Origin: a virus | Virus record (IMG/VR): IMGVR_UViG_3300006868_000090 | Span: 1 to 26,311 of that record | DNA length: 26,311 nucleotides | Strand: one strand, 5' to 3' | Part shown: piece by piece, positions 9,341 to 25,886 of the stretch | Layout of the letters: each line of letters opens with the position of its first letter | How positions within the stretch are numbered: position 1 is the first letter of the stretch | Position numbers and translations under genes: made by a program | Notes under the pieces: model-generated | Database searches by the model: none | Seen by the model: the letters and a program-made list of their open reading frames with translations, nothing else | Told to the model about the DNA's origin: nothing

Positions 9341-9377
9341 CTGAAAAAAATTCTCCGCCAAAAATAGACGAAAAAAG

Positions 9378-10604: not shown

Positions 10605-11461
10605 TGGCAAATTATACTAGAGAAAAATCAAAATACGGTGGAGTCGTAGGTAGTATTCAGCTATTTACTAGTGCTCTGCCATTAGCAAATGATCCCTTAG
10701 ATGCTCAATGGAAGTCTCAAATTCCTGCTGGTTTTTTGAGATGTGATGGATCTATTTTGAATGCTAAAGAATATCCAGAACTTGCTGCTATTCTTGGAGT
10801 TGGTGAAGCTTCTAAATTTAGAAAAGAAACTCAGGAATTGAATGAAAATCAGTTTCAACTTCCAGATCTTGGATCTAAGTATATGACTCCTGGTTTGGCT
10901 AGCGGTCAGTATGCTTCTTTGAATATTATTCAGACAGGAAAAAGTAGAGTAGGTGCTGAAGTTTCTGTTACTTCCAATGTTGGAAATAGTGTTACAATTG
11001 ATTATGCAGGAAACTTCACTGTAATTGGGCAAAGCGATGTTGCTCTTTTGGGAAACTCAAAATTTACTCCACCAAATGATGAAAAAAATACTGGTGAAGC
11101 AATTCTTGATCAGTCAAGTTTTCAAGCACATGGACATAATACAAATGCTAAAGTACTGAACTATACTGGAAATTTCAAAGTTGGTGCGGAAGGAAAAAGT
11201 GGAACTGATCTAACACCTTTTGCAGGAAACCAAATTGTTGGATCTGGAAATCCATCAAATACAACTCAATCACGACACGTACACAAAATTACTTGGCCAA
11301 ATGCTGCATCATATAATCAAAATTTCAAATTTGAATTTGATACTTTCAATGCCCCAGCAGACAATCTACAAACAACTATAAATATTGCCACTAAAACAGT
11401 TACAGAACTTCCAGAGACGGTTCAACCATTTATTTTAGTAGAGTACATAATAAAATTCTAA
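10604..11461 (+). CDS. Tail-collar domain protein, 285 aa
   Basis: This is a second collar-type protein: VVGSIQLF, then IPAGFLRCDGSILN, EYPELAAILG and FQLPDLGSKYMTPG (about residues 14-105). Sequence is well diverged from the 408-aa protein, so this is an old paralogue rather than a recent copy. HGH (11129-11137) and HVH (11276-11284) again give exactly two HxH pairs. The C-terminus is beta-rich and ends in LVEYIIKF, comparable to the hydrophobic-aromatic ends of its neighbours (CLYLIRAY, VKYIIKAY), which suggests a shared trimer tip. The start overlaps the upstream stop, with AGGG at 10593-10596 seven bases before the ATG. Confidence 0.85.
   Translation: MANYTREKSKYGGVVGSIQLFTSALPLANDPLDAQWKSQIPAGFLRCDGSILNAKEYPELAAILGVGEASKFRKETQELNENQFQLPDLGSKYMTPGLASGQYASLNIIQTGKSRVGAEVSVTSNVGNSVTIDYAGNFTVIGQSDVALLGNSKFTPPNDEKNTGEAILDQSSFQAHGHNTNAKVLNYTGNFKVGAEGKSGTDLTPFAGNQIVGSGNPSNTTQSRHVHKITWPNAASYNQNFKFEFDTFNAPADNLQTTINIATKTVTELPETVQPFILVEYIIKF
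11377..11384 (+). promoter_or_regulatory. Candidate late promoter TATAAATA
   Basis: A perfect match to the T4 late-promoter element lies inside the end of the 285-aa gene, 78 bases before the ATG of the 681-aa gene. Similar octamers also occur by chance in this AT-rich DNA (for example inside the gene at 13740-13747), so this is weak evidence. Confidence 0.3.
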
Positions 11462-11462
11462 C

Positions 11463-13508
11463 ATGGCAGAACTAATATACGACTTATATCCAGGAGAAAT
11501 GACATGGGAATTATTGGATGGATGTGCCATTTATAATTCTGGATATGGAGTTTCTGGTGCTGCTGGAACTGGAGAACTTGGTGGATTTAATACCAATACT
11601 GGAAAAGCATATTTGAGTTTTGGAACGTTCAACTCATATTCTTATGTTATTGATAGAGAGGCAAAATTTTTCTTGAATCTTGCTAGTATGGAGTATATGA
11701 TTATTGATGTAATCACTGGTAGTGATTATAATGGAGGAGAGAGACCAAATAATTTTGGAGAATCACTATATTTACAATCTATTACTGGATCTGGACAAAC
11801 ATATTTAATGGCAAATTCTGGTAAAGATGGTGGATATACATTTCCAGATGTTGATGCTGGTGGTGCGTGGACAACAAAAACAGTTTATATATCCGAAGCT
11901 GATAAGGGTGTGAAATTGTGGAGATTTTATGCATATAGTGTTGCTCAACCAGAATTTGCTGGAAGTGGAGGAATATACTCATCAAATGTAAACGCTGGCG
12001 ATAGATATGGAATCTCACGAATAAGAGTTTATGGCACTGTTCCTACTCATATTCAATACTTTAGGGGAAACGATGAAAGTGATGAAGTATCGATATTTCC
12101 TGGCGATCCTCTAGTTTTGTCTTGGAGTACTAAACTTGGAAATTTTGTTGGTGCAACTAGCGTAAGTATAAATCAAGGAATTGGTGCTGTGGCACCCATA
12201 GCGCAGGGATCTATTACTCTTGCTGTTGGTCCAACCGTTGAAACTACTTATATTTTTACTGCTGTTGGAAATACTGGAACTATAACAAAAACTCTCCTTG
12301 TGAAGATGAAAGTTCCAGATACTACTCCAGACATCTTTGCTTTTGGTGCTGTATCTGGTGCTGAACTTTCAACAGAATATACTAGTAATACTATTACAGT
12401 TGCTGGACTAGATCCTGGAATTATAGTAGTTCTTAGTGCTACAAATGGTGCTCTAACATCAGTGAATGGAGGAGCATTTAGTACTACTAATAAATCTGTT
12501 ACTAACAACGATACTGTTACTGTTAAGATGACATCATCTGGCAGTTTCAATACGCAAAAATCTACAACTGTCAGTATTGGAACAATTAGTACAACTTGGA
12601 AAATTACTACTAAATCAGCACCAGTTCAAATACCAAATACGTTTACATTTACTCCAGTAGTTGGTGCTCCAGTTCTTACATATATTGAGAGCAATGAGGT
12701 AACAATTACTGGTCTTACAACTACCGTAGATGTAACCGCACCTACTAATGGAGCAGAAAGTTCTGTGAACGGTGGAGCATACTCTACAGCAGCAAAGACA
12801 ATATCTAACGGTGGCAAACTAAAACTTAGACTTCTTACGAGTGATGTTCTTGGTGATGTTGCGACAACTGCTATTGCTGTTGGAGATGGTCCTAATGTAG
12901 GGTGGCAAGTAACTAATGTTACAACTGCGGACGGTAATCCAGATTATTTTGATTTCGATGACATTATAAATGCTTCACCGTCATCTTTAGTTGAGAGCAA
13001 TGTAATTACAATTACTGGTATTAATGTACCAACAACCGTTACTACAACTACAACAGATGGTTTGAATAATCCTTCTGGAGCAGAAATTAGAATTGATGGT
13101 GGATCTTGGCAACCAAGTCCCGCAACAATATCCAACAATCAAACACTTCAGATTAGATGGACATCTAGCGCAGATCCTGGAGCAACTGTATCAACTAATA
13201 TAACTGTAGGCACTCTAACAAATGATTGGAAGATAACCACTACAACCGCTGGTGATATCATACCAGATGATTTCTTTTTCTTTGATAAAGATAATCAACC
13301 TCCAAATACATATGTTGAGAGTAACACTGTGATCATTCAGGGTATTACTTCTCCTTCTCCAATCAATGTTGTGAACGGACAAGTTTCTATCAATAAAGGA
13401 CCTTGGATATTTACTGGATTCGTAAATAATGGAGACACACTGAAAGCAAGAGTTCTTACGCCTGGGACACTGCTAACACCAAAATCACTTTCTATAACGG
13501 TAGGATAA
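11463..13508 (+). CDS. Ig-like repeat structural protein with N-terminal beta-sandwich domain, 681 aa
   Basis: Residues 1-195 form a Gly/Tyr-rich beta-sandwich-like domain (FLNL, SDYNGGERPNN, SLYLQSITGSG, YGISRIRVYG) that resembles carbohydrate-binding or reeler-type domains of other phage appendages; this is pattern recognition only. About 196-284 is an Ig/PKD-like domain (YFRGND, WST, SINQGIG, TTYIFTA). About 285-681 are four Ig-like repeats sharing SNxVTIxGI, SVNGGxxS and a W(K/Q)(I/V)T strand. The last repeat stops at SITVG, before that W strand. The next gene (679 aa) has the same five domains in the same order. No Shine-Dalgarno is seen at the start, two bases after the upstream stop. 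The protein is probably an adhesin or fibre; no enzyme motif is present. Confidence 0.8.
   Translation: MAELIYDLYPGEMTWELLDGCAIYNSGYGVSGAAGTGELGGFNTNTGKAYLSFGTFNSYSYVIDREAKFFLNLASMEYMIIDVITGSDYNGGERPNNFGESLYLQSITGSGQTYLMANSGKDGGYTFPDVDAGGAWTTKTVYISEADKGVKLWRFYAYSVAQPEFAGSGGIYSSNVNAGDRYGISRIRVYGTVPTHIQYFRGNDESDEVSIFPGDPLVLSWSTKLGNFVGATSVSINQGIGAVAPIAQGSITLAVGPTVETTYIFTAVGNTGTITKTLLVKMKVPDTTPDIFAFGAVSGAELSTEYTSNTITVAGLDPGIIVVLSATNGALTSVNGGAFSTTNKSVTNNDTVTVKMTSSGSFNTQKSTTVSIGTISTTWKITTKSAPVQIPNTFTFTPVVGAPVLTYIESNEVTITGLTTTVDVTAPTNGAESSVNGGAYSTAAKTISNGGKLKLRLLTSDVLGDVATTAIAVGDGPNVGWQVTNVTTADGNPDYFDFDDIINASPSSLVESNVITITGINVPTTVTTTTTDGLNNPSGAEIRIDGGSWQPSPATISNNQTLQIRWTSSADPGATVSTNITVGTLTNDWKITTTTAGDIIPDDFFFFDKDNQPPNTYVESNTVIIQGITSPSPINVVNGQVSINKGPWIFTGFVNNGDTLKARVLTPGTLLTPKSLSITVG
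12316..13505 (+). repeat. Four Ig-like protein repeats (array 1)
   Basis: Approximate units are 12316-12630, 12631-12936, 12937-13260 and 13261-13505. Each begins near (I/N)P-x-x-F-x-F, carries SNxVTIxGI and a V-N/D-G-G turn, and ends near V(S/T)(I/V)G followed by a W strand. The fourth unit ends at SITVG and lacks the W strand. Each unit resembles its positional partner in array 2 more than its neighbours. Confidence 0.8.
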
Positions 13509-13509
13509 C

Positions 13510-15549
13510 ATGCCAGCATACGTTACGGGTTATTACTATAGATACGGAAACACAAGTGATTGTACAACTATACCAGCTTGGATTCCTGGTGTCTCATCAG
13601 CAGATGTCAATGATGGCACTAGAGATCAGATAAGTAACGCTTATTTCTCTCTTTTTGGAAGATATGGAGAATCGCCCTATCTTGAACAATGGCTTGCTGA
13701 TTGGATTTATGGAAGTGCTCCAACTGTTTACGGGTCAATTATAAATATGATTCGTGCTGGTGGAGATTCTAATCAAGGTGGCAGTGGAGAACTTCAAGAC
13801 GTTCAAGCATATGGAAAACATACTTGGGGAGGTCAGGGTTCTTGTCCTCCTCCACCTCCAGTGTGCTCATCTCTTTCTGCAAGTTTGAGCTTGAATAAAA
13901 CAAGCATAGTAAATGATGGAATAGATAGTGCTACTCTAAGTTGGTCAATAACGGGAGATAAAATAACTTCAATATCAGTAACTTCTGTTAGCAGTCCAGG
14001 AACGAGTGGAAGCGTTACTGTAAAACCAGCATCAACAACAAGTTATTATCTAACTGTCACCAATGAATGTGGTGTTACTTATAGTGCAACCTCAGTTACT
14101 CTAAACGTAATTGATATACCCCTAACACTTACTTATTTTAGAGCAAATGATCAATGGCCAGAAACATCTGTATATCCAGATGAGGTAGTTACATTTACAT
14201 GGAGTACCCTTTTTAATGCTTCTTATAATACTGCTACTAGTGCTAGTATAAATCAAGGCATTGGACCAGTTGCAACTGGAGCAAAACAAACTACAATACC
14301 AGCTCCATCTCAAGATACTGTGTATACTATTACGATAAGTGATGGATCTGCTACATTATCCGAAAGCGTTACTGTAAAATTATTGAAATTTGATGACGAA
14401 GCAGACCCCATTTCTTTTTCTGCTGTTGAAGATGCTGAACTATCCACAGTATACGATTCTAATGTTGTCACTATTAGTGGTCTTCAAGCATCAGTATCTT
14501 GTTCGGCATCAAATGGTGCTCTAACATCTGTAAATGGTGGTGCTTTTTCTGCAGATGTAAAACAAGTTTCTGAAGGTGATACTTTACAATTGAGAATGCA
14601 ATCATCTGCTAGTTTTAATACTCAAAAAACAACAACTGTTAGTTTGGGTGAAGTCAATAACACATGGAAAATACGAACAAAAACTGCTCCACAGCAAATT
14701 CCAAACAATTTTGATTTCAATGATGTTGAAGACGCTCCTCTACTTTCATATATTGAAAGCAATTCTGTAGTAATTTCTGGAATTACCGAACCAGTTTTGG
14801 TAACAACTCCATCAAATGGATTTGAAAGTTCTGTGAATGGAGGTTTATTTGATACCACACCTAAAAATATTACTAATGGTCAAACTCTAAAACTTAGGGT
14901 TCTTACTAGTAATGTTTTGGGGGACACACAAACTACAGGAGTGCTTGTTGGGGATTCACCTCTTGTTGATTGGAATGTCGTAAATGTTTTGACAGCAGAT
15001 AACAATCCAAATTATTTTGATTTTCTTGATAAAATAAATCAAATACCAAATTCCATTGTTGAAAGTGACGTATTGACTATTGAAGGAATCAATGTACCAA
15101 CACCAGTAACAGTTACTAATGGAGCTGAGTTTAGAATCAATGGTGGAGCATGGACTACAACTGGAAATATAAATGTCAACCAGACTTTACAACTTAGAAT
15201 TCTTTCTAGTCCAAATTTTGGGGAGTCTGTTTCTACATCCGTGACAGTTGGTAATCTTACTGATTTGTGGACAGTTTTTAGTACTACATTTGGTGATACA
15301 ATTCCAGATGCTTTCTATTTTGCTGATAGAGATAACCAACCACCAAATACTTATGTTTTGAGTAATACAGTTTTGATAAGTGGTATCACAGCACCAGCTC
15401 CCGTTTCTGTCACTGGTGGACAATGTTCTATAAATGGAAACGGATGGATTATCAGTGGTTCAATAAATAATGGAGACACTCTAAGACTCAGAATTTTGAG
15501 TAGCAGTAGTCTAAACACGGCGGTTTCTGCTTCTATTTCTATCGGTTGA
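13510..15549 (+). CDS. Ig-like repeat structural protein, paralogue of the upstream gene, 679 aa
   Basis: The N-terminus (1-110) differs from its paralogue and contains AYFSLFGRYGE followed by LEQWLADW, loosely like DUF4214-type surface modules (low confidence). A proline run (CPPPPPVC) leads into an Ig-like domain (about 118-202). A second Ig-like domain (YFRAND, WST, SINQGIG, about 206-292) and four repeats (293-679) match the 681-aa protein domain by domain: NGALTSVNGGAFS, GINVP, DNQPPNTYV and others are shared. TAGGA at 13501-13505 is a usable ribosome site. The protein ends at SISIG with TGA, TCA, then the in-frame ATG of the next gene, whose first residues look like the missing last strand of repeat 4. 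Most likely a fibre or adhesin subunit. Confidence 0.8.
   Translation: MPAYVTGYYYRYGNTSDCTTIPAWIPGVSSADVNDGTRDQISNAYFSLFGRYGESPYLEQWLADWIYGSAPTVYGSIINMIRAGGDSNQGGSGELQDVQAYGKHTWGGQGSCPPPPPVCSSLSASLSLNKTSIVNDGIDSATLSWSITGDKITSISVTSVSSPGTSGSVTVKPASTTSYYLTVTNECGVTYSATSVTLNVIDIPLTLTYFRANDQWPETSVYPDEVVTFTWSTLFNASYNTATSASINQGIGPVATGAKQTTIPAPSQDTVYTITISDGSATLSESVTVKLLKFDDEADPISFSAVEDAELSTVYDSNVVTISGLQASVSCSASNGALTSVNGGAFSADVKQVSEGDTLQLRMQSSASFNTQKTTTVSLGEVNNTWKIRTKTAPQQIPNNFDFNDVEDAPLLSYIESNSVVISGITEPVLVTTPSNGFESSVNGGLFDTTPKNITNGQTLKLRVLTSNVLGDTQTTGVLVGDSPLVDWNVVNVLTADNNPNYFDFLDKINQIPNSIVESDVLTIEGINVPTPVTVTNGAEFRINGGAWTTTGNINVNQTLQLRILSSPNFGESVSTSVTVGNLTDLWTVFSTTFGDTIPDAFYFADRDNQPPNTYVLSNTVLISGITAPAPVSVTGGQCSINGNGWIISGSINNGDTLRLRILSSSSLNTAVSASISIG
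14390..15546 (+). repeat. Four Ig-like protein repeats (array 2)
   Basis: Approximate units are 14390-14700, 14701-15006, 15007-15300 and 15301-15546, built like array 1. Shared signatures by position are SVNGGAFS and FNTQK(S/T)TTVS in unit 1, ESSVNGG and VLGD in unit 2, GINVPT in unit 3, and DNQPPNTYV in unit 4. Synonymous positions differ widely, so the duplication is old. Unit 4 stops before the W strand. Confidence 0.8.
15462..15469 (+). promoter_or_regulatory. Candidate late promoter AATAAATA
   Basis: This matches the NATAAATA late element inside the end of the 679-aa gene, 83 bases before the next ATG. It could be chance in AT-rich coding DNA. Confidence 0.25.
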
Positions 15550-15552
15550 TCA

Positions 15553-16818
15553 ATGGCATATACTACTAATTGGACAGTTACAACATATGCAAGTGCTGAT
15601 AACCTGCAACAGGGACACTGGTATAGTGCTAGAAATAAAAAGTTAGATGGATTATCACTAGGTACTGTGATGAGTATTTTTAGAGATAATACTGGAAACT
15701 GGGGAACTCTTGATGGCAATTTAGATTCAAGATATCCTGGATGGATTGAATGTGATGGCAGAACATTGAATGCTGCGGATTATCCAGATCTTTTTGATGT
15801 TATTGGGAACACTTATGGTGGAAATGGTGTAAGATCTCAAACTGGAAATACTAAAACATATTCTGGGTCTTTCAATCTACCAAACTATCATAATAGATTG
15901 TTGATGGGAATTGGTAATGTTGATGGCAATAAGTCTTCATCTCCTTCTGTTATTACATACGGAGGACCAAATCCAAATTCTGGCAGCACTGGTGATTCAA
16001 ATATTGTTGGATCTTATGGTGGAAACTGGTATATTGACACAGTTGATGCTCAGGGAGATCCTCCTGACGAACAAGTATATAGTGGTATTGGATCTAGTGA
16101 TGGCAAATTTTTCAAACTAGGATCTCTAACAACCACGGGACAAGATGGAATTACTGGAGAGACAACTTATACTATTACTGGAAACATTTCAGCTGCCATT
16201 GGACCAATCACAGAAGTAATTACCACTCCACCTCAACATGAACATGATGTAATTACAGCACAAGCAGACCAAATTTCTGTTGGATATGTTGCGTGGGGAA
16301 CTCCAGCCTTTTATCAGATAAGTAATGGAGAAATTGGTGCCACACTTTACTCATCAATCGGTTATAATAGTGTAGTATCACCTGGAGGAGAAGTAAATAG
16401 AAATTTCAATAATTATTGGGCTGGTGCGGTTCAAAATAATATCTCTGGACTTCCAGGTGGTGGTAACGCCTCTGCTGCTGCTGGTGTAAACAACGTTCAG
16501 GGTAATGTCGTGGTATATTCTCCAGGAACCCTACAAACACATGCCCATTATCTTTCCCAGAACGATTTTGGATCTTCTCAAAACGTATATGGATATGGTA
16601 ACACTGTTGGTGGTGGAACTGCAGCAGGTGGAATGGCAACTAATACAACTACAAACATTCAATTTACTCAAACTCAACTTGCTCTAACAGCAAATGAAGC
16701 AACATTTGAATTGAATCTCTCTAAAGTTGTAATTCCAACTCCAGCACTAACTCCAGAAACAACCATTCCAGTCATCAATAAATATCATCGTGTAAAATAC
16801 ATTATCAAAGCATATTGA
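15553..16818 (+). CDS. Tail-collar domain protein with extra N-terminal strand, 421 aa
   Basis: A collar domain begins at about residue 35: LGTVMSIFRD, then YPGWIECDGRTLN, DYPDLFDVIG, TYGGNG and FNLPNYHNRLLMG. The ~34 residues before it (WTVTTYASAD) are absent from the other two collar proteins and look like the W strand that ends each upstream Ig-like repeat. HEH (16237-16245) and HAH (16540-16548) give the same two-HxH pattern as the 408- and 285-aa proteins. The middle and C-terminus are Gly/Asn/Thr-rich, ending VKYIIKAY. The ATG is in the same frame as the upstream gene, separated only by TGA TCA, with no Shine-Dalgarno, so re-initiation or coupling is likely. A virion fibre-tip role is likely. 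Confidence 0.85.
   Translation: MAYTTNWTVTTYASADNLQQGHWYSARNKKLDGLSLGTVMSIFRDNTGNWGTLDGNLDSRYPGWIECDGRTLNAADYPDLFDVIGNTYGGNGVRSQTGNTKTYSGSFNLPNYHNRLLMGIGNVDGNKSSSPSVITYGGPNPNSGSTGDSNIVGSYGGNWYIDTVDAQGDPPDEQVYSGIGSSDGKFFKLGSLTTTGQDGITGETTYTITGNISAAIGPITEVITTPPQHEHDVITAQADQISVGYVAWGTPAFYQISNGEIGATLYSSIGYNSVVSPGGEVNRNFNNYWAGAVQNNISGLPGGGNASAAAGVNNVQGNVVVYSPGTLQTHAHYLSQNDFGSSQNVYGYGNTVGGGTAAGGMATNTTTNIQFTQTQLALTANEATFELNLSKVVIPTPALTPETTIPVINKYHRVKYIIKAY
16777..16784 (+). promoter_or_regulatory. Candidate late promoter AATAAATA
   Basis: A match to the T4-like late element lies 42 bases before the start of the first oxygenase gene, inside the end of the 421-aa gene. The distance is plausible for a late promoter; there is no other support. 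Confidence 0.35.
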
Positions 16819-16826: not shown

Positions 16827-17474
16827 ATGTCCGTGCAACCTATTCGTCCTTTGGAGTTGATGAAGGACGAAAATATTACAAAATCAGAATTTTCTGATTT
16901 TATTGGAGTTTGGGAAAATTTTGTTCCTCCAGTAGTCTGTCAAAAATTCATTGATCATTTTGAAAGTGTTCGTGCTAACTCTGCTCTTATTGATGAAGCT
17001 GAGCAGGGAGCGATTCTAGATGGAACTAATCAGTTTCCTCAGGGTAGTCTTGGTAGAAAAGATGAATCTCTGCTTATCAATTATTCTAGTCAAAGACTGA
17101 ACTACGAAGCAAATCAGTATCTTTCTGCGTGTACTTATCATTATATTGATACTTACAATCAATTGAGATCTACTAAACTAATCTCTGAAGATACTAAGAT
17201 GCAAAAAACTCCACCTGGCGGTGGGTATCATGTGTGGCACTATGAAAATAGTGGGTACGGATTTCACGCTAGAGAATTAGTGTGGATTATCTATCTAAAT
17301 GATCTTCCAGAGGGAGAAGCAGAAACTGAGTTCTTGTATCAGAAAAGAAGAATTAGACCAACTGCAGGAACTGTTGTAATTTGGCCCGCTGCTCTAACTC
17401 ATGTTCATAAAGGAAACACTGTATTTACAGAAGATAAATATATTTTGACTGGCTGGTATATCAAGGTTCCATAA
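16827..17474 (+). CDS. 2OG-Fe(II) oxygenase, prolyl-4-hydroxylase-like, HxE variant, 215 aa
   Basis: The family oxidises a substrate, often a Pro, Lys or Asp side chain, using 2-oxoglutarate, O2 and Fe(II). The core runs from residue 125 to 213: PPGGGYHVWHYEN, a hydrophobic strand (LVWIIYLND), GTVVIWPAALTHVHKGN and DKYILTGWY. Proposed iron ligands are H138, E140 (HxE instead of the usual HxD) and H194 (or H192); K204 could hold 2-oxoglutarate. HxE is rare but known in some oxygenases, so activity is plausible. It is the first gene of the operon after the tail-collar genes and overlaps the next by one base (TAATG). The substrate is unknown; a virion or host protein is possible. Confidence 0.8.
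   Translation: MSVQPIRPLELMKDENITKSEFSDFIGVWENFVPPVVCQKFIDHFESVRANSALIDEAEQGAILDGTNQFPQGSLGRKDESLLINYSSQRLNYEANQYLSACTYHYIDTYNQLRSTKLISEDTKMQKTPPGGGYHVWHYENSGYGFHARELVWIIYLNDLPEGEAETEFLYQKRRIRPTAGTVVIWPAALTHVHKGNTVFTEDKYILTGWYIKVP
17433..17440 (+). promoter_or_regulatory. Candidate late promoter GATAAATA
   Basis: A match to NATAAATA near the end of the first oxygenase gene, 33 bases before ATG 17474. Motif evidence only. Confidence 0.3.
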
Positions 17475-18430
17475 TGGCAGAATATTACTACAGACAACCT
17501 ACCGAAGACGAAGTTAGGGAGTTTTGGTCTACACATATTAGACCAAAAGAATCTATCATGGAACTGAACTTCAAAGAGAAGGCGGTTACTATTGGTAGTG
17601 TTGCTGATGGCGGTCAAACAACATTTATCGATGAGAAAGCATGGGATGACATTGTTTTGAAGTCAATCCCAGAATTTTGGCATGATCCAGGAAAAGATGA
17701 GATTGAACATCTTCTTTTATACAATAATGATCAATATTTGTGCCAAAGAAGAAGAATGAAGTATGATTTTTCTTCTAATTCTTCCTATTGGGATACTTAT
17801 AATTTCAAGGACGGATCTGTTGAGGATGTAAAGAAGATTTATGAGGTTATTCATGCTACTGTAATTATTCAAAGAGAAATTCATTCATTGGAAGTTCTTG
17901 AAGAAGCTAGAAAACTGAATCTTGAAGCACTAAACTATTATTATGACCAGAAATGGTATAAGAAGATGGATGAAATTCAAAAAATGCTTCTTTACTCTGA
18001 TTTCAGAGTATTACCTGATACACCTGTAAAATATGATGGAGAGAAAGATGATTGGGTGATTTGGAGACAGAAACTAAGAGATCTTCTTCCAAAAAACCCA
18101 AGGGAAGAATTTGCTGATAACTTTGAGATGTTCAAATTTATCCAAACATTGAAATATCCTATTGATCCACGAGTATATTTTGACAGATACCCCAATCTTG
18201 ATGTAGAATATCTTTCTACAGAGGATCAATTTGAAAAGTACGATTTCCAAGTTTCCAAAGACTTTGTTGGAAAAACACAACTAAATCTCATCAACTTCTT
18301 AGAATCATATAACACTGATTTCAGACCAATTGATTCTAAAGTGTTAGAATTGGCAAAGAAGTTAAAAATGGAAACGGTTTACACTGGACTAGATTACGAG
18401 AAATTTGTAGCTGATAATCAAACTGAGTAA
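17474..18430 (+). CDS. Probable tail-fibre assembly chaperone-like protein, 318 aa
   Basis: I do not recognise the whole protein. Residues 194-205 (WVIWRQKLRDLL), followed by Pro-rich spacing (KYPIDPRVYFDRYP), resemble the W-x-x-(Y/W)RQ-x-LRD motif of phage tail-fibre assembly chaperones, which help fibres fold or trimerise and are often encoded just after fibre genes. Position here, a few kilobases after the collar genes, fits. The N-terminal half has a beta-like start (KAVTIGSVADGGQTTFI) and a long, highly charged helical stretch (about 115-165: EARKLNLEALNYYYDQKWYKKMDEIQ). No signal peptide or membrane segment is seen. It is larger than typical chaperones of this type, so it may be a fusion or a virion protein. 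Role is inference. Confidence 0.6.
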   Translation: MAEYYYRQPTEDEVREFWSTHIRPKESIMELNFKEKAVTIGSVADGGQTTFIDEKAWDDIVLKSIPEFWHDPGKDEIEHLLLYNNDQYLCQRRRMKYDFSSNSSYWDTYNFKDGSVEDVKKIYEVIHATVIIQREIHSLEVLEEARKLNLEALNYYYDQKWYKKMDEIQKMLLYSDFRVLPDTPVKYDGEKDDWVIWRQKLRDLLPKNPREEFADNFEMFKFIQTLKYPIDPRVYFDRYPNLDVEYLSTEDQFEKYDFQVSKDFVGKTQLNLINFLESYNTDFRPIDSKVLELAKKLKMETVYTGLDYEKFVADNQTE

Positions 18431-18432
18431 TT

Positions 18433-19077
18433 ATGATTTATGAATATGATATGCTGCCAAAAGCAGTAGTGAAAAATCTTTTGGATTTTTATGAGTTTTG
18501 TGAATTTACTGACGGATCTTGGTCTGGTTCTTCAAATAGAGATTTGAAGTATAATGAACAAATTTTAGATAAAGTTCATTATCCTTCTATGGTTTCTTTG
18601 ATGAACAAATACATCTCAGAAAATCAGGGATTCAATTATCTTTTTCTTCCACGAGGACATACTCATCCCAATTTCCTTAGATACAAAGAGGGAATGCATT
18701 ATGCTTGGCATAATGACATGTGGATTTTAGATGGAATGAAAACAGATTACAGCATCACGGTATTTTTGAATGATCCTTCTGAGTATGAAGGAGGTGAACT
18801 TGTAATTACAGTCGGTGATGCTAATGTTGAATACAAATTAGAACCAGGAAAAGCAGTAATATATCACACTGGTCTCGATCATTGTGTAAAACCAGTTATC
18901 AAGGGAGAACGAAAAGTTGTTACATGGTGGTTCTGTTCTATTATTGATAATGGTAAAATGAGAGACGTTATCATGCAGTATTCTAGACTTCTGGCAGAGC
19001 TAGAGCAAGATCATCCCCTGAAACCAAAGTTTGAAACTATTCGTCATAACTTGATTAGAGAAAATGCCATCATATAA
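18433..19077 (+). CDS. PKHD-type (PiuC/YbiX-like) 2OG-Fe(II) hydroxylase, 214 aa
   Basis: The core matches PKHD-type hydroxylases: RYKEGMHYAWHNDMW, then SITVFLNDPSEYEGGELVI, LEPGKAVIYHTGLDHCVKPV and GERKVVTWWF. Iron ligands are H93, D95 and H150, and R160 is positioned to bind 2-oxoglutarate. The C-terminal helix with SRLLAEL also follows the family pattern. It starts two bases after the upstream stop and overlaps the next gene by 14 bases, so it is translated as part of the operon. All catalytic residues are present. Family assignment is strong; the substrate is unknown. Cyanophages are known to carry such genes. Confidence 0.88.
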   Translation: MIYEYDMLPKAVVKNLLDFYEFCEFTDGSWSGSSNRDLKYNEQILDKVHYPSMVSLMNKYISENQGFNYLFLPRGHTHPNFLRYKEGMHYAWHNDMWILDGMKTDYSITVFLNDPSEYEGGELVITVGDANVEYKLEPGKAVIYHTGLDHCVKPVIKGERKVVTWWFCSIIDNGKMRDVIMQYSRLLAELEQDHPLKPKFETIRHNLIRENAII

Positions 19078-19603
19078 TACTTCGGACATAGTTGAATATC
19101 ATGACTTTTTTGACAGTCATGATTATATTTCGGTAAAAAGAGCAATCGATGATAAATCATGGCATTGGGGACATAAAAGTATTCATAAGAAAGAGAATAG
19201 ACTTCCTCCTTTCTGGTATATGGAATTATCTGATGATAAGTTCTTTTCGGACTATCTCCTAAATAAGATTGAACAGAAAACAAATAGTGAATTTCATTTA
19301 GAGCGTGTATACGCAAATGGTCAAACTTATGGCATGAGAGGAAGTCCACATCAGGACGGATTTGATACTTCTTGTAGAACTCTCTTATATTATCCAATGG
19401 AAACATGGAGTGTTGAATGGGGAGGAAAGACAGGATTTATTATTCAAACAAATTCTGGTCCACAATATCATTTTGTTGTTCCTGAACCAAATAAAGCGGT
19501 TTTGTTTCCTGGTCAAATCTTTCATTGGGCAGAAGAAACTACTAGATCATTTGCTGGTTTACGAGTGTCAATTGCTTGGAAGTTATTCATCAAAATAAAA
19601 TGA
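19064..19603 (+). CDS. 2OG-Fe(II) oxygenase, 179 aa
   Basis: The protein has a complete, compact oxygenase core. GSPHQDGFD supplies H96 and D98. LLYYPMETWSVEWGGKTGF is the strand and GG turn that follow in the family. AVLFPGQIFHWAEE gives H154, and R161 or R167 (GLRVSIAWKL) is the 2-oxoglutarate arginine. The N-terminal 80 residues hold the usual helix (VKRAIDDKSWHWGH) and are not diagnostic. The start lies within the 3' end of the previous gene (14-base overlap), with GAGA a few bases upstream. Its ATGA overlap with the next gene suggests coupling. Sequence similarity to the other oxygenases here is limited to the core motifs. Confidence 0.85.
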   Translation: MPSYNTSDIVEYHDFFDSHDYISVKRAIDDKSWHWGHKSIHKKENRLPPFWYMELSDDKFFSDYLLNKIEQKTNSEFHLERVYANGQTYGMRGSPHQDGFDTSCRTLLYYPMETWSVEWGGKTGFIIQTNSGPQYHFVVPEPNKAVLFPGQIFHWAEETTRSFAGLRVSIAWKLFIKIK

Positions 19604-19938
19604 CCCATCAAGTATACGAATATCAAACAATCGTTGAAAATTACATCGCATCGCGTCAGAAACCCACAATGGTGGTGCGTAATGTAGGACCACGCAATAT
19701 TGTAGATGAAGATAAGAAAACACAGGTATATGATACGTATCGTATGCTGGTAGATCGTGATATTATGCATGGCATTTTGACTCATGAGATTATCTTTGTA
19801 GAATTTGAAACTGTGGAAGAAGCGGAAACATACGCAGTTGATCATTTTCCAAAGAACTCATCTGAAGGAGATCCCGATTATTATATTCTTGTTGAAGTGT
19901 ATGATGATCAAGGAAGAATTGAGTACCATAACAGATAA
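19600..19938 (+). CDS. Hypothetical phage protein, 112 aa
   Basis: The start at 19600 (MTHQVYEYQ) overlaps the previous stop in ATGA form; the longer frame from 19576 would run into the oxygenase and is less likely. Residues 50-75 (YDTYRMLVDRDIMHGILTHE) look helical and 76-112 (EIIFVEFETVEEAETYAVDHFP...ILVEVYDDQGRIEY) beta-alpha-beta. I recognise no catalytic motif and do not know the function. It lies between two oxygenase genes. Confidence 0.65.
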   Translation: MTHQVYEYQTIVENYIASRQKPTMVVRNVGPRNIVDEDKKTQVYDTYRMLVDRDIMHGILTHEIIFVEFETVEEAETYAVDHFPKNSSEGDPDYYILVEVYDDQGRIEYHNR

Positions 19939-19940
19939 TC

Positions 19941-20807
19941 ATGACTTACACAGATCATTATATGGGTGCTCAGGAGCACAGTATAACAAATAGAAGTTTT
20001 CTAAACTATCACAGATATGTTCCTCACGAATATATCAAATTTGATTTGATTGATCAAACTGCTGCTGAAAAGATAGAATCTTTCTATGATTTTTTTGTTG
20101 AAGAGAACAAAGAACTTGGATTTATCAAGCAATCCATGCTAAAGAAGAATAGTTGTGGTTTGTGGATAACAACCACAGACGACACTTTTACTGAAGACTT
20201 GTATTATCACCCATATCACGCATTTGATTATAGAGCAATTGACGTTGATTCTTTCTATGCTTTGTTTGGTAAACAAGAACCAGAGTTATTGAAAAAAATT
20301 AGAGAAGAAAAAATTGATGTAGGTATCGAAGGAGTATCTCTATCAACAACTGGAGATGTGATGAAGTACATCATGCTATTCAGACCAGTTTCAAATATTA
20401 TTGAGTTACTAAATCTTCCAGAATTTGAAAAACTTCAAAAATTTGTTGATTTGAATTTTTCCGAACTAAAAGCAGGTGAAGCATCAGCACCAGATTCATT
20501 CAAGTCGCCAATAAGAGTACAGTTTGATTCTGATGATGATACAATTTCTGTAGAATTTGTTAGTGCTTTTTATCAAAAAGAACTATATTTGAGTGGGGGA
20601 AATTATGACTCATATCTCAATAGAAAGCAAAAGTATTTTGATAGAATGGCAGAGTGTGACCTGCTAGATTCTGATGAGATTCAGTATTGTAAAGAGAATA
20701 GTCCATCGCGGCAACAATTTTCCATCAAATTCAAGTGGAAAGGTGGTATAATGGTTGATAAGAAGTTGTATACTTTTGATGTGGTAGATTTTGAGCGAGT
20801 TGTATGA
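19941..20807 (+). CDS. Hypothetical phage protein, 288 aa, in oxygenase operon
   Basis: No family is recognised. The protein is mixed alpha/beta and acidic, with helices at about 35-60 (TAAEKIESFYDFFVEENKE) and 105-125 (PELLKKIREEKI), and a Lys/Arg-rich, aromatic C-terminus (FSIKFKWKGG...KLYTFDVVDF). No His-x-Asp pair with a distal His and Arg is visible, so it is not another standard oxygenase. Position between oxygenase genes and the tight spacing (ATGA overlap with the next) suggest it is co-produced; it could be a partner or a substrate, but that is a guess. Confidence 0.65.
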   Translation: MTYTDHYMGAQEHSITNRSFLNYHRYVPHEYIKFDLIDQTAAEKIESFYDFFVEENKELGFIKQSMLKKNSCGLWITTTDDTFTEDLYYHPYHAFDYRAIDVDSFYALFGKQEPELLKKIREEKIDVGIEGVSLSTTGDVMKYIMLFRPVSNIIELLNLPEFEKLQKFVDLNFSELKAGEASAPDSFKSPIRVQFDSDDDTISVEFVSAFYQKELYLSGGNYDSYLNRKQKYFDRMAECDLLDSDEIQYCKENSPSRQQFSIKFKWKGGIMVDKKLYTFDVVDFERVV

Positions 20808-21373
20808 TTCTTGGTAGTATTATTCATGAGTATGTCATCGATGAATGTGATCAACTGAACAACCAAATCGCAGATTTTTTATATCAACTAAGAAAACTAA
20901 AACCAGAATCTGATGTAAGGTCAAACAGAAACGGGTGGCAAAAAAATAATATTGAAATAATGCCTCAAATGCAACCACTGCTGTATCTGATATCACAGCA
21001 ATTTGAACAATTCATTATCAATGAAATGAGACCGTTGATGGAGACAAAATATTTCTTGGGAAATATGTTTTGTAACATCAATCCTCCTGGTTCTCATAAT
21101 TTACCTCATGTACATGAAGGAGACTTCACTGGTGTTTATTATGTAAAGACACCAGATGACTGTGGTAATCTCTCTATAATGAATCCTCATCAGTGCGCCA
21201 CCACCGCAAGGTTGACAACTTATTTCGATGCTGTTAGGATGGAAGAGAAAATCAGACCCATTGCTGGTAGGGGTTATTTCTTTCCAACACATCTAGTTCA
21301 TTATGTGGAAGAGAATAAATCTAACAGCGATAGGATATCAATATCATACAATATCAATGTACAAAAGAAATGA
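20804..21373 (+). CDS. 2OG-Fe(II) oxygenase of the HxH-type (PF13759-like), 189 aa
   Basis: The sequence resembles the PF13759/TIGR02466 group: NPPGSHNLPHVHEGDFTGVY, then YYVKTPDDCGNL and NP, then GRGYFFPTHLVHYVEE and SDRISISYNI. Iron-binding positions are H102 and H104 (HxH rather than HxD) with H166 as the distal His and R177 for 2-oxoglutarate. Families of this type have lost or replaced the usual Asp, so activity is not certain. Overlapping ATGA junctions with both neighbours point to coupled translation. Substrate unknown. Confidence 0.78.
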   Translation: MILGSIIHEYVIDECDQLNNQIADFLYQLRKLKPESDVRSNRNGWQKNNIEIMPQMQPLLYLISQQFEQFIINEMRPLMETKYFLGNMFCNINPPGSHNLPHVHEGDFTGVYYVKTPDDCGNLSIMNPHQCATTARLTTYFDAVRMEEKIRPIAGRGYFFPTHLVHYVEENKSNSDRISISYNINVQKK

Positions 21374-21954
21374 TCTGTCAAGTTATAGATGGTATATTTG
21401 ATCAAATTTATATCCATCAAGTTGATGCTCTAATTAGAGACATTCCACTTTCTACAAATAATGTTGCTAACAGAAAAACATGGCCCTTTGGTAATGAAGG
21501 ATCACATAGATTGTTAGGTCAGATACTATTTGATAGATCAAGCATAAACAACATCAAAACACTCAAACCAGAGGCAGAAACTTTCTTCAAGATGTTTGAA
21601 GTTATTGAAGACAGATTGAAGGCATTTTTCTATCTTTCTCAAATATCACTGAATATTCAGCATTCTGGTTGTGATGGCACAACTCATTGTGACAGTCCAG
21701 ATCCTTATGATCATACTATTCTTCTCATGACAAATTCGGTTTGGGATAAAGAATGGGGTGGGCAATTTCAATTGATTGAAAATGATGAAGTTGTTGAAGA
21801 ACATGAGTATGTGCCTGGTAGAGTAATTGTATTGCCTTCTAAACATCCACATAGAGGATTAGGACCAATCCATCCATATGTTTATAGATCCTCTATTGTA
21901 TTCAGAGTAACACCTCTCGATTATTACCTTCGTAAATCTTATCCTGGAAGCTAA
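21370..21954 (+). CDS. 2OG-Fe(II) oxygenase, 194 aa
   Basis: The core is complete. TTHCDSPDPYDHT gives H106 and D108; TILLMTNSVWDKEWGGQFQLI is the typical strand-turn-strand; YVPGRVIVLPSKHPHRGLGP gives H161; and YRSSIVFRV supplies R173 for 2-oxoglutarate. The N-terminal 80 residues are not diagnostic. The start overlaps the previous stop and the end overlaps the next start (TAATG). It is divergent from the other four oxygenases, so the cluster was probably assembled from several sources rather than by tandem duplication. Confidence 0.85.
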   Translation: MICQVIDGIFDQIYIHQVDALIRDIPLSTNNVANRKTWPFGNEGSHRLLGQILFDRSSINNIKTLKPEAETFFKMFEVIEDRLKAFFYLSQISLNIQHSGCDGTTHCDSPDPYDHTILLMTNSVWDKEWGGQFQLIENDEVVEEHEYVPGRVIVLPSKHPHRGLGPIHPYVYRSSIVFRVTPLDYYLRKSYPGS

Positions 21955-22187
21955 TGAAAGTCCCTACACAATATGAATTGACGCATCTGCAACTGCAAGC
22001 GATGCTCCGTGATCACAATATCCCAGAAACAGAGATCAAATACCTGGGTGAATTTGAATATACTGCTGAATACTCAGCACATCCAGAATACCATGGTTAT
22101 ATGATGCATTGGTATCGCATTGGTAATGAACATGAAGTTCCTGTCTGCGACATCGCATCCGTCGATCGAACCGACGAGGACGATTGA
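21954..22187 (+). CDS. Hypothetical protein, 77 aa
   Basis: This is the last gene of the AT-rich operon, overlapping the oxygenase stop by one base. It is small and acidic with an aromatic/His-rich centre (YTAEYSAHPEYHGYMMHWYRIG). I recognise no family. Its stop (TGA) lies inside the TTGAAGAACTG element that precedes the terminator at 22201. Confidence 0.65.
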   Translation: MKVPTQYELTHLQLQAMLRDHNIPETEIKYLGEFEYTAEYSAHPEYHGYMMHWYRIGNEHEVPVCDIASVDRTDEDD

Positions 22188-22200
22188 AGAACTGTCACAG

Positions 22201-22221
22201 GGGGTCGCAAGACCCCTTTTT
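22201..22221 (+). terminator. Rho-independent terminator after the oxygenase operon
   Basis: GGGGTC (22201-22206) and GACCCC (22211-22216) form a 6-bp perfect stem with GCAA as a GNRA-type loop, followed by five T residues. It ends the operon that contains the oxygenases and precedes the helicase promoter. TTGAAGAACTG just upstream (22184-22194) also occurs before the second terminator. Confidence 0.88.
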
Positions 22222-22228
22222 CATGCCC

Positions 22229-22234
22229 TATACT
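22229..22234 (+). promoter_or_regulatory. Candidate promoter -10 (TATACT) for the helicase
   Basis: TATACT matches the sigma-70 -10 consensus in five of six bases and lies 22 bases before ATG 22257, immediately after the terminator. A good -35 is not visible; the position expected for it falls on the terminator stem-loop (TCGCAA, three of six). The same TTTTTCATGC run and ATACTAT follow the second terminator. Confidence 0.5.
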
Positions 22235-22256
22235 ATTCTCATCAACGACGTACCGC

Positions 22257-23507
22257 ATGACCCTGACCCTTCGCCCTCACCAGCAGCGTATGCTCGATGC
22301 TCTGCTGTCTGCTGACCGTGGGCGTCTTACCTGCCCCACAGGCGGCGGTAAGACCCTTGTGATGATCCTTGACACTCTGCGCCGTCTCCAGCAGGCAGAC
22401 CGCCCTCAGACGATCGTAGTGGTCTCTCCTCGCATCCTGCTGTCGGTCCAACTCTATGAAGAGTTCTTTGCCGAACTGAATGGCAAGGTTGATGTTGCTA
22501 CTCTCCACGTTCATAGTGGCGAGGTTGATGGTAACAGCACCACCAAGATCCAAGAGATCCAGTGTCATGCTGGTGTCTGTGCTGCTGCTAACATTCACCA
22601 ACTGATCTTCACCACTTACAACTCTCTGCGTCGTATCAACGAGGCAGGTATTGATGTTGACACCATCTATTATGATGAGGCACACAACTCTGTCCGCCGT
22701 GACTTCTTCAAAGAAGTTGCTGCTGCTTCGCTGACTGCTAAGCAAGCATACTATCTTACTGCCACTCCTAAGTATCGTGGTGGTGCTATCAGTATGAACA
22801 ACACTGATGTGTATGGTAGCGAGTTGATCAACGTGCCTGCTCCTGAGTTGATCAGCAATGGTAGCATCATCCCTCCTACCATTCTTCCTCACGTTGTTGA
22901 TATTGAGCGTAACAAGTCTCTGCTCGCTGCTGAGAACGATCGCCAGGTGCTGACTGATATTGTCAGCAAACTCGATGATGACTCTGCTCAGAAGATCCTG
23001 GTTGCTGCTCCTAACACTCGTGTGCTGTGGGCGTTGCTGACTGGCACGAATGTGATGGCAGAGTTTGCTGATCGTGGTTACGATGTTCTTCACATCACCA
23101 GCAAGCACGGTGCTTATGTGAATAAGCGTAAGGTTGGTCGTCAAGAGTTCTTTGACACTCTTGATGCCTGGGGTAAAGATCCCAGCCGTAAGTTCATCAT
23201 GTTCCACTATAGCATCCTGTCTGAAGGTATCAACGTGCCTGGTCTTACCCATACTATTCTCCTTCGCAACCTGCCTGTGATCGAGATGGCGCAGACTATT
23301 GGACGTGTGATTCGTCTTGATCGCCAGGATGCTGCTGACATCGCTGCTGGTAAGATCCCTGCTGGCAAACTTGATTTCTATCGCAAGCGCACTGGTTTCG
23401 TGACTGTGCCTGTCTTCACCAACTATGGTAAGCAGACTGAGAAGCGTCTCCAGCGTGTTGTGGATGCCATCTTTGTCAAAGGTGTCGCTGCCACTGAGTT
23501 TATCTGA
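22257..23507 (+). CDS. Superfamily 2 DNA/RNA helicase, UvsW/Res-like, 416 aa
   Basis: SF2 motifs are in order: RPHQ at 6-9 (Q-tip), PTGGGKT at 27-33 (Walker A), DEAH at 140-143, TATP at 168-171 (motif III), SEGINVPG at 322-329 (motif V) and QTIGRVIR at 346-353 (motif VI). The enzyme couples ATP hydrolysis to translocation or strand separation on nucleic acid. It begins almost directly at RPHQ, so it lacks the N-terminal DNA-binding extension of T4 UvsW and is shorter (416 versus about 500 residues). The closest known families are UvsW-like and the Res-type helicase of restriction systems. It is in a GC-richer segment than the genes before it and has its own promoter. No Shine-Dalgarno is evident. 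A role in recombination-dependent replication or branch migration is plausible. Confidence 0.85.
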   Translation: MTLTLRPHQQRMLDALLSADRGRLTCPTGGGKTLVMILDTLRRLQQADRPQTIVVVSPRILLSVQLYEEFFAELNGKVDVATLHVHSGEVDGNSTTKIQEIQCHAGVCAAANIHQLIFTTYNSLRRINEAGIDVDTIYYDEAHNSVRRDFFKEVAAASLTAKQAYYLTATPKYRGGAISMNNTDVYGSELINVPAPELISNGSIIPPTILPHVVDIERNKSLLAAENDRQVLTDIVSKLDDDSAQKILVAAPNTRVLWALLTGTNVMAEFADRGYDVLHITSKHGAYVNKRKVGRQEFFDTLDAWGKDPSRKFIMFHYSILSEGINVPGLTHTILLRNLPVIEMAQTIGRVIRLDRQDAADIAAGKIPAGKLDFYRKRTGFVTVPVFTNYGKQTEKRLQRVVDAIFVKGVAATEFI

Positions 23508-23520
23508 AATGTAAAGATAG

Positions 23521-23546
23521 TGTGAGGATACGTTGATATCCTCACA
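23521..23546 (+). promoter_or_regulatory. Perfect hairpin overlapping the -35 box (possible operator)
   Basis: TGTGAGGATA (23521-23530) and TATCCTCACA (23537-23546) are perfect inverted repeats with a six-base loop CGTTGA. No T run follows on this strand, so it is not a classical terminator. The loop and start of the right arm contain TTGATA, the -35 of the promoter below. An operator or an RNA-processing hairpin are both possible. Confidence 0.6.
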
Positions 23547-23560
23547 AAACAATCTAAAAT
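23533..23560 (+). promoter_or_regulatory. Sigma-70-type promoter upstream of the small-gene cluster
   Basis: TTGATA (23533-23538, five of six to consensus) is separated by 16 bases from TAAAAT (23555-23560, five of six). This is the best conventional promoter in the window; the first gene starts at 23583, about 16 bases after the expected transcription start. Confidence 0.6.
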
Positions 23561-23582
23561 AGTAATACTACGTTAGACTACC

Positions 23583-23765
23583 ATGGATCACCAAAAGCAC
23601 GAAAAGAGACGCGATGCTCTGGGTTTGTTCTACGAAAGCGTATTGAAACCTGACTCACAACTGCGTCAGTGTGCTCACAACCAAGAATGTTTCCATGAGT
23701 TGATGGAATGGCGCTCAGAAGTGCTAGAATACCTTGACCGTCGCCGTAATGAGGAGTTCAACTAA
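23583..23765 (+). CDS. Small charged helical protein, 60 aa
   Basis: A highly charged, probably all-helical protein with Cys/His residues in the middle (CAHNQECFHEL) and a basic/acidic end (EVLEYLDRRRNEEF). No family is recognised. It begins 16 bases after the predicted transcription start and its TAA overlaps the next ATG (TAATG). No Shine-Dalgarno. The coding bias and tight packing support a real gene. Function unknown. Confidence 0.6.
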   Translation: MDHQKHEKRRDALGLFYESVLKPDSQLRQCAHNQECFHELMEWRSEVLEYLDRRRNEEFN

Positions 23766-24058
23766 TGACTGGACACGAATTTGTAATTGAAGGGCGCCCT
23801 GAAATGAATGTAGATTGGGAAAAGCAGTATCGTAAGCAGCGTAAAGATCGCTTGACTGATGCTGTTCATGACTATTTGGATGATAAGGACACTAGTATCC
23901 TTGAATTCTATAATGATCTGCGCGATATTATCGTGGAGATGAACACTTACCATAAATCCTTCGCTGAAAAGGCGGAGGGTGCCCTGCTGCTGGTTCATGG
24001 CAAGTCCAGCACAGAAAATGATGATGTTGAACCTCCTGCCGAATCCTGGAATGGATGA
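23765..24058 (+). CDS. Hypothetical cyanophage protein, 97 aa
   Basis: The N-terminus MTGHEFVIEG and a long charged helix (about 20-75: EKQYRKQRKDRLTDAVHDYLDDKDTSI...) are followed by an acidic tail ending ESWNG. No enzymatic motif is seen. It overlaps its upstream neighbour by one base and the next gene by eight. The pattern is familiar from T4-like cyanophage small-gene clusters but I cannot name a function. Confidence 0.65.
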   Translation: MTGHEFVIEGRPEMNVDWEKQYRKQRKDRLTDAVHDYLDDKDTSILEFYNDLRDIIVEMNTYHKSFAEKAEGALLLVHGKSSTENDDVEPPAESWNG

Positions 24059-24583: not shown

Positions 24584-25120
24584 ATGAAGATCCGCACTAA
24601 CTCTTCGATCAAGACAGAATCCATTGGGGTTGAAGCACGTCTTCGTGACTTTCTGGGTGCTGATAAACCTTTGCCTGAGCATAAGGGTAAGCACACTGAC
24701 GATCTCTGGTTCAAAGAGGACAATTTCTTCGCAGAGCATAAAGATTGTACTGCTCAGAAAGTTGGTTTGAATCAAGTTCATTGTACTCGTTATGAGGTTA
24801 TTATTGTAGACCTCAGTGGCAACAAATACTATGACTATGATTATGCTGTAATCGACCCTACTACTATTCTTAAAAAAGTTTTGAACAAGAAAGGACAACA
24901 CTCTCACAGTGCTATTGAGTGTGCTCAAGTCAACCTCAATCCCACTGAAGTTGCTAAGTATGGTTGCATGGAAACCGAACTTCGTGCTAAAATCTATGAA
25001 GCATATCGTATCGGTGAGCAGAATGTCAAACTGAAGCAGTTTGCTGAAGAGAAAGCGAAAGCGATTGTTGACCGTGCTACTCAAGACATGAAAGATTTGG
25101 AGACCCTGTTGAATGATTGA
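24584..25120 (+). CDS. Possible PD-(D/E)XK nuclease-like protein, 178 aa
   Basis: The start is ATG 24584; an earlier ATG-less frame start at 24533 falls inside the terminator. No family is named with certainty. Residues 39-53 (DDLWFKEDNFFAEHK) show D39/D40 followed 11-12 residues later by E51-x-K53 in a hydrophobic strand, with Q64 and a further strand (YEVIIVD). That arrangement resembles PD-(D/E)XK endonuclease cores. The C-terminal third is a long helix (about 145-178: EQNVKLKQFAEEKAKAIVDR). The gene overlaps the downstream DNA methyltransferase by eight bases, a typical arrangement of restriction-modification pairs, but also of other couplings. An unrelated beta protein is possible; function is inferred from motif and context only. 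Confidence 0.5.
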   Translation: MKIRTNSSIKTESIGVEARLRDFLGADKPLPEHKGKHTDDLWFKEDNFFAEHKDCTAQKVGLNQVHCTRYEVIIVDLSGNKYYDYDYAVIDPTTILKKVLNKKGQHSHSAIECAQVNLNPTEVAKYGCMETELRAKIYEAYRIGEQNVKLKQFAEEKAKAIVDRATQDMKDLETLLND

Positions 25121-25886
25121 AAATTTAGATTGTCTAGACTACCTCAAGACTCTTGAGGATGATAGTGTGGATCTGGTAGTCACAGATCCACCGTATTTCA
25201 TTGGATTTGATGGTGGTAAGGGATGGGATTCTCAGTGGAACAGTGAGCATGAGTATCTTGATTGGTGTGGACAGTGGACGGCAGAGTGTGTCCGTGTTCT
25301 AAAACCCAATCGTATGTTCATTGTGTGGGGTACACTCAAGACGGAGACATTCCTGCGCTACAAACTACAGACCACAGATAATCATGCTGTGCTCACACCA
25401 CAGAATGAGATCATCTGGTCATACAACTGGGGTGGACGTGCTAAGACTAACTTTGCTCGCAAACATGAGTATGCGTGGTGTTGGTCTAAAGGCGCGGAAT
25501 TTCTGTTCAATGATGCGGAAATTCGTGTGGAACGTAAGGTGAAGAAGAATCTACGCACTGGTCAAGACTACACTCAGGGCACTATTCCCACCTGTATTTG
25601 GGAGAAGAACAACCACACCACGTCTAAAGATTACTGTGGTTGGCATCCTACCACCAAGAATCTTGAGGTGATGGAACGTATTGTCCGCGCATATACCAAT
25701 CCTGGTGATACTGTGCTGGACATCTTTATGGGTTCTGGTTCTACTGCTATCGCAGCAAAACGTGCTGGTCGCAATTATATTGGTTGCGAACGCGATACAG
25801 AGTATTATGCCAAGAGCATCGAGCGCATCGGGCAACTGGGTGTGACAGCTGTCAAACCGCCCACTCACCATCCCCTGTTCCCCTGA
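25113..25886 (+). CDS. Beta-class DNA methyltransferase (N6-adenine or N4-cytosine), 257 aa
   Basis: DPPY (25-28) lies near the N-terminus and the SAM-binding motif DIFMGSGST (203-211), with ACID-type NYIGCE after it, near the C-terminus. This motif IV-before-motif I order is the beta class. HPTTKNLEVMERI is the usual motif X-like segment before motif I, and the target-recognition part lies in between. The enzyme transfers a methyl group from SAM to adenine N6 or cytosine N4 in DNA. It overlaps the preceding nuclease-like gene by eight bases. In cyanophages such enzymes may protect phage DNA from host restriction. Specificity cannot be predicted here. Confidence 0.9.
   Translation: MIENLDCLDYLKTLEDDSVDLVVTDPPYFIGFDGGKGWDSQWNSEHEYLDWCGQWTAECVRVLKPNRMFIVWGTLKTETFLRYKLQTTDNHAVLTPQNEIIWSYNWGGRAKTNFARKHEYAWCWSKGAEFLFNDAEIRVERKVKKNLRTGQDYTQGTIPTCIWEKNNHTTSKDYCGWHPTTKNLEVMERIVRAYTNPGDTVLDIFMGSGSTAIAAKRAGRNYIGCERDTEYYAKSIERIGQLGVTAVKPPTHHPLFP

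Follow-up and report, generated by a model that had tools for sequence, protein, structure and literature searches.

Few unexplained genes of marine T4-like phages are as numerous as those for 2-oxoglutarate (2OG)-Fe(II) oxygenases, which are usually assigned, with no experimental backing, to auxiliary metabolism or to DNA repair. That a cyanophage may have several of them has been known for a long time; one to five are typical, with up to 24 reported in S-SCSM1 (PMC9602691). The described clusters closest to the one treated here are those of the Synechococcus phage Sf-CH1b (PV340850), of the phages S-PM2, S-RIM32 and S-H9-2 (T4-GC 240-741-28-166-742-743-101) and of the SAR11 phage HTVC008M. 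We analysed a virus fragment of 26,311 bases from IMG/VR (IMGVR_UViG_3300006868_000090), which belongs to a T4-like cyanophage (Kyanoviridae) and is referred to in its entirety, and not only in its oxygenase module, as the window. Here, five oxygenase genes (A, C, D, G and H) and three further genes (B, E and F) follow the last tail-fibre gene, fibZ. We propose, with a probability of about 50%, that fibZ-A-B-C-D-E-F-G-H is a tail-fibre maturation module, whose enzymes would hydroxylate side chains of the fibre or of its putative chaperone.

Sf-CH1b is the nearest annotated relative of the window (69% DNA identity across 95% of the module) and carries all eight genes A-H in the same order, with A, B, C, D, F, G and H being 57-75% identical; it differs in that the helicase gene J does not stand at the end of the module and in the presence of a sixth 2OG oxygenase about 0.6 kb further on. 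S-PM2, S-RIM32 and S-H9-2 share the order A-B-C-D-E-F-G, then a helicase, but have no H and a more divergent G (30-33%). HTVC008M also has four consecutive 2OG oxygenases, among them an A-type HxE and a C-like protein, with H-type and G-type genes nearby, but this array lies among head, neck and terminase genes, beside genes labelled ferrochelatase and tryptophan halogenase, and does not form part of a fibre-chaperone module. The first-pass annotation knew of no described system that explains five oxygenases together, which holds for their function but not for their arrangement, which is already public in these genomes (the core cluster in the S-PM2 record, all five in Sf-CH1b). The window is another member, at the long end, of a conserved and functionally unexplained Kyanoviridae arrangement. 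Five together are not a record either. A 72-kb marine virus contig (L111) carries nine oxygenase-type genes in a row plus a tryptophan halogenase (9333-16423; PF13640/PF13759), one of the nine being a weak PF13759 match and one oxygenase being fused to a DUF6817 domain, and another marine virus array (L120, 364-8533) has six 2OG oxygenases, two JmjC_2 proteins and one unassigned open reading frame downstream of a glycine-rich (Gly_rich_2) protein. In the open-access literature we found no paper treating the cluster as a fibre module, and searches there for hydroxylated phage fibres with hydroxylases, for PiuC with 2-oxoglutarate and for FlmC oxygenases returned none.

Families and active sites of the five oxygenases

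The coordinates and lengths of the five genes, all on the plus strand, are those given by the first-pass annotation, and so are the three iron-site variants (HxE, HxD in three genes, and HxH): A (16827..17474, 215 amino acids) has H138-x-E140, C (18433..19077, 214 amino acids) H93-x-D95, D (19064..19603, 179 amino acids) H96-x-D98, G (20804..21373, 189 amino acids) H102-x-H104 and H (21370..21954, 194 amino acids) H106-x-D108. HxE and HxH each characterise entire subfamilies, unlinked paralogues included, and are not peculiar to the cluster. When sequences from isolates and IMG/VR were aligned, the iron-site and 2OG-binding residues of all five families were invariant or nearly so. A, C, D and H carry the HxD/E...H metal triad, distal histidine included, while G has HxH...H in its place, as do the PF13759-type relatives compared with it, and its iron site is a predicted one. 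Past the distal histidine, the arginine or lysine predicted to bind the 2OG C5-carboxylate is K204 in A, R160 in C, R167 in D, R177 in G and R173 in H. Catalysis dependent on 2OG and Fe is predicted for all five. The median ratio of nonsynonymous to synonymous substitution rates (dN/dS) across the five genes is 0.07-0.19, a strong purifying selection which indicates that they are being maintained and are not decaying.

Judged by sequence profiles and active sites, together with the predicted fold of H, all five are true 2OG-Fe(II) oxygenases and fall into at least four subfamilies: bacterial-prolyl-4-hydroxylase (P4H)-like HxE (A), PiuC/PKHD-like (C), a pair of distant paralogues (D and H) and PF13759/TIGR02466 HxH (G). 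Five different oxygenases had been announced; D and H turned out to be distant paralogues (hhalign 97%), the other pairs being related only at the superfamily level, and none proved to be anything other than a 2OG oxygenase. In Pfam, A (PF13640, 1.2e-8), C (PF13640, 5e-14) and G (PF13759, 2.2e-15) exceed the curated cut-off, with D (PF13640, 2.6e-5) and H (PF13640, 1.6e-4) falling just under it. The four active-site residues of A (H138/E140/H192/K204) are invariant in 59 sequences, its profile matches in the PDB are the prolyl 4-hydroxylases 5c5t, 3itq and 5hv0 (2e-5 to 9e-5) and its dN/dS is 0.10. C matches the PKHD-type hydroxylase 3dkq (4e-41) and PiuC (9ghl, 2e-36); against the PiuC/PKHD equivalog NF003974 it scores 3.6e-35 and 121.5 bits, under the cut-off of 143, which makes it a relative and not a member of the equivalog. 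PF13640 is matched by 38 of the 46 members of the D family, in which H96/D98/H154/R167 are invariant; D scores 6.7e-15 and 55.6 bits against the FlmC-family 2OG oxygenase model NF052475, under its cut-off of 240, and its nearest solved relative, by a weak profile match, is OGFOD1. G exceeds the cut-offs of both TIGR02466 (7e-21, 74.9 bits versus 62.5) and PF13759 (57.3 bits versus 27), matches 3bvc and 2rg4 in the PDB (1e-16 to 1e-14) and conserves H102/H104/H166/R177.

H is the weakest by sequence, with PF13640 matching 9 of 17 family members (best 1.8e-10), although H106/D108/H161/R173 are invariant. Its AlphaFold2 model (predicted local distance difference test, pLDDT, 89.5; predicted template modelling score, pTM, 0.86) has a confident oxygenase fold, which Foldseek matched to 6n1f and PHD2 (about 6e-8 to 9e-8, probability 1.0) and which aligned structurally with PHD2 (Z 17.0) and PiuC (Z 16.5). 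The double-stranded beta-helix is thus structure-predicted for H and supported by sequence profiles for A, C, D and G. The five share fold and active-site families with bacterial prolyl 4-hydroxylase (A), PiuC/PKHD (C), OGFOD1 (D), PHD2 (H) and the PF13759 structures 2rg4/3bvc (G), but identities are low or, except for G, scores stay below curated cut-offs, and substrates are not transferable.

Gene order at the fibre locus

Relatives were fetched from IMG/VR with alignments of A, B and H, since IMG/VR scans with a single D or H protein gave no relatives, and family profiles were then run over these loci and over annotated isolates. We obtained 88 non-redundant loci containing B, which in the window (17474..18430, plus strand, 318 amino acids) is a putative tail (fibre) assembly chaperone (phrog_4697, 2.7e-61). 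A lies immediately upstream of B in all 83 loci with enough upstream DNA to test, and a fibre gene immediately precedes A in 82 of them, the sole exception being S-RSM4, where an annotated short tail fibre occupies that place and was missed by the profiles. When only the loci seeded with B were considered, both adjacencies held in 46/46. The fibre preceding A is of the fibZ family in 87 of the 88 loci; in the window, fibZ (15553..16818, plus strand) encodes a tail-collar-domain protein of 421 amino acids (PF07484 Collar, 4.9e-13; phrog_4924 short tail fiber protein, 7e-88), the last of three tail-collar proteins that, with two long fibre-like proteins, precede A. A search of 50,697 phage records gave 59 cyanophage records for B and 59 for fibZ, with the same tallies by organism name.

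The order fibre-A-B-C-D-E-F(-G-H) recurs across Kyanoviridae, with C-D-E-F following in most loci and G and H as clade-specific extensions in a smaller clade that takes in the window and Sf-CH1b; S-H9-1 and ACG-2014h have fibre-A-B-C-E. Among orthologues, identity is about 50% for A and about 30% for C, and the order of A, C and D is fixed. The cluster is therefore syntenic in relatives and not unique to the window. Adjacency to the fibre is typical of the A-B-C-D subset, not of phage 2OG oxygenases generally. E (19600..19938, plus strand, 112 amino acids; phrog_4883, 1.3e-14) is a small protein, conserved as part of the fibre-chaperone core, which persists in phages devoid of oxygenases at the fibre locus, and F (19941..20807, plus strand, 288 amino acids; dN/dS 0.12) is a conserved, fast-diverging protein found at the same place in most relatives, for which no Pfam family and no PDB match were obtained. 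From A to the small gene I after the module, adjacent genes either overlap or are separated by no more than 2 bp, the gaps being 8 bp between fibZ and A and 69 bp between I and J, a tight packing consistent with one transcription unit. The single operon of five oxygenases that had been announced is indeed a packed plus-strand run, though not a contiguous one, as B, E and F are interleaved to make eight genes.

Proposed fibre maturation and competing explanations

In the maturation module that we propose, the core would be formed by the last collar-type fibre gene, B and E, to which as many as five 2OG-Fe(II) oxygenases, drawn from different subfamilies, would have been added at fixed positions. 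Expressed late, each oxygenase would draw on host Fe(II), O2 and 2OG, and fibre side chains (most likely Pro, or Asp/Asn/Lys) would be hydroxylated while folding with B, which may alter the stability, trimerisation or receptor binding of the fibre. The proposal builds on enzyme families, five intact active sites, the packing from A to I, the conserved order with A-B and fibre-A adjacency, the single fibZ family, the purifying selection and the identical fibZ and B organism tallies, and on the solved structures closest to A, C, D and H, which are of the prolyl or other protein-hydroxylase type (P4H, PKHD/PiuC, weakly OGFOD1, and PHD2). From these we infer that the genes are expressed together and late, that the substrates are proteins and not small molecules, that the fibre is the target and that infectivity is affected. 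The first-pass annotation had suggested modification of fibres or of host targets; a fibre family before A and a putative chaperone after it, nearly without exception, strengthen the link to the fibre and support the suggestion in part, the modification of fibres itself being putative. Altogether, a role in completing the fibres with which the virus binds its host is more probable for these enzymes than one as unrelated metabolic genes. More tentatively, and with the odds somewhat against it, Kyanoviridae may possess a dedicated multi-enzyme fibre-hydroxylation line, in which up to five oxygenases, one of them locked between fibre gene and chaperone, would hydroxylate the receptor-binding fibres in several ways. 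To our knowledge, this would be the first such virion-maturation system in phages. Should this hold, the receptor-binding proteins of phages would bear hydroxylations made by enzymes and dependent on the O2, iron and 2OG of the host, whose supply would be tied to phage infectivity. The link to the fibre is now quantified. With defined orthologues tied to one fibre gene and one putative chaperone, what these oxygenases do becomes a matter that mass spectrometry of virions from available isolates can address.

Several observations weigh against fibre maturation. S-WAM2 and Sf-FR1, retrieved later than the loci counted above, have fibre-B-E-helicase (E confirmed by profile) with no oxygenase at the fibre locus, and Sf-FR1 even retains a fibZ-type fibre; the claim that this fibre needs A is weakened accordingly, and a strict A-fibZ dependence, which we had considered, loses ground. 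For such fibres the oxygenases are dispensable or are replaced by paralogues elsewhere. The same loci show fibre-B-E to be a stable core, to which the oxygenases look like additions at fixed places. Oxygenases of the same subfamilies also occur apart from fibres in HTVC008M, P-SSM2 and the nine-oxygenase array of L111. The chaperone identity of B is weak, coming from phrog_4697 and from PF16778 (Phage_tail_APC), which matches a minority of the family (19 of 65 members at E<=0.01, best 8.7e-7, with the B of the window under the cut-off). The AlphaFold2 model of B (pLDDT 89) has weak structural neighbours named tail assembly chaperone; at E<=0.001 it matched nothing in the PDB, and its best VIA-align Z was 5.6, to helices of DnaK, a value inside the stated noise range for helical proteins, so that no clear solved fold relative came to light. 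Moreover, no fibre protein of the window has a Gly-X-Y run of five or more, which makes collagen-type hydroxylation unlikely, and we rejected a collagen-type prolyl hydroxylation substrate for the window; a (GXX)8 run was present in 4 of 88 last fibres. Finally, the oxygenases may sit here because the variable host-recognition region offers a hotspot for insertion.

This last possibility, in which the end of the fibre operon tolerates insertions and gathers unrelated oxygenases as cargo, agrees with the hypervariability of the host-recognition region of marine T4-like phages (PMC7029224), with the variation of G and H by clade and with the loci of S-WAM2 and Sf-FR1. Cargo should, however, vary in order and type, yet A, C and D are orthologous and fixed in order over deep divergence, and we regard this account as improbable. 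We give much the same low credence to the oxygenases being metabolic genes that consume 2OG and thereby alter nitrogen signalling through NtcA or produce succinate, as put forward by Sullivan et al. 2010 (PMC3037559); the many copies per cyanophage speak for it, whereas five distinct conserved sites, strong purifying selection and a near-invariant order beside a single fibre family would not be expected for bulk 2OG turnover. A role in DNA repair or modification (AlkB-like), proposed from Syn9 (PMC2984593; see also PMC9146016), is prompted by the neighbouring helicase and repair genes, J coming after the module, and by the public naming of D as an endonuclease V. We consider it very unlikely, as Pfam and NCBIfam scans of the oxygenases returned no AlkB-type family, their nearest solved relatives are protein hydroxylases, the name of D is a misannotation (see below) and the fibre-B-E core persists without oxygenases, which behave as add-ons to it. 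Fibre maturation accounts for the gene order better than either published idea.

The oxygenases might instead merely ride in the late operon and hydroxylate host proteins (e.g. ribosomal proteins, translation factors or surface proteins) for take-over of the cell. Bacterial P4H and OGFOD1-like enzymes act on translation proteins, and it is these families that A and D resemble; the marine array L120 includes two JmjC_2 proteins of the ribosomal-oxygenase type, and genes of the same subfamilies stand outside fibre regions in HTVC008M and P-SSM2. This account leaves unexplained why A is fixed between the fibre and B (83/83) and why C and D are interleaved between B and E, and we hold it to be unlikely.

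Public labels of oxygenases and their neighbours

D-type proteins are named 'DNA endonuclease V' or DenV in PHROGs (phrog_274) and in public records. This identity was rejected for D, which, like the other so-labelled proteins that we scanned, matches only 2OG-Fe(II) oxygenase families, and judging from these matches the label looks like a spreading misannotation. The labelled proteins are those at 19064-19603 of the window, L018 6165-6731, L212 13405-13878 and L001 38422-38967. Similarly, the 'ferrochelatase' adjoining the ACG-2014h oxygenases is a 2OG oxygenase (PF13640, 9e-19), and those of S-PM2, S-RIM32 and HTVC008M matched no Pfam family (coordinates examined: L212 12854-13402, L005 16495-17103 and L016 2536-3177, the last on the minus strand). 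The published pairing of oxygenase and ferrochelatase (PMC9599517) may rest partly on wrong labels.

Surroundings of the module

Beyond H, the window continues on the plus strand with I (21954..22187; phrog_2020, 7.8e-28), a small conserved protein, and with J (22257..23507; PF04851, 7e-17), a DEAD/ResIII helicase that in many relatives marks the boundary of the module. In a search for late promoters, TATAAAT was no more frequent than expected by chance and CTAAATA was rarer than expected, and sigma-70-like matches were close to background. An N6/N4 DNA methyltransferase is encoded at 25113-25886 (PF01555, 8e-51), with no restriction partner seen in the window. The G+C content climbs over 22000-24000, the oxygenase module having about 35% and helicase J about 50%, a shift which suggests that the module and the helicase differ in history.

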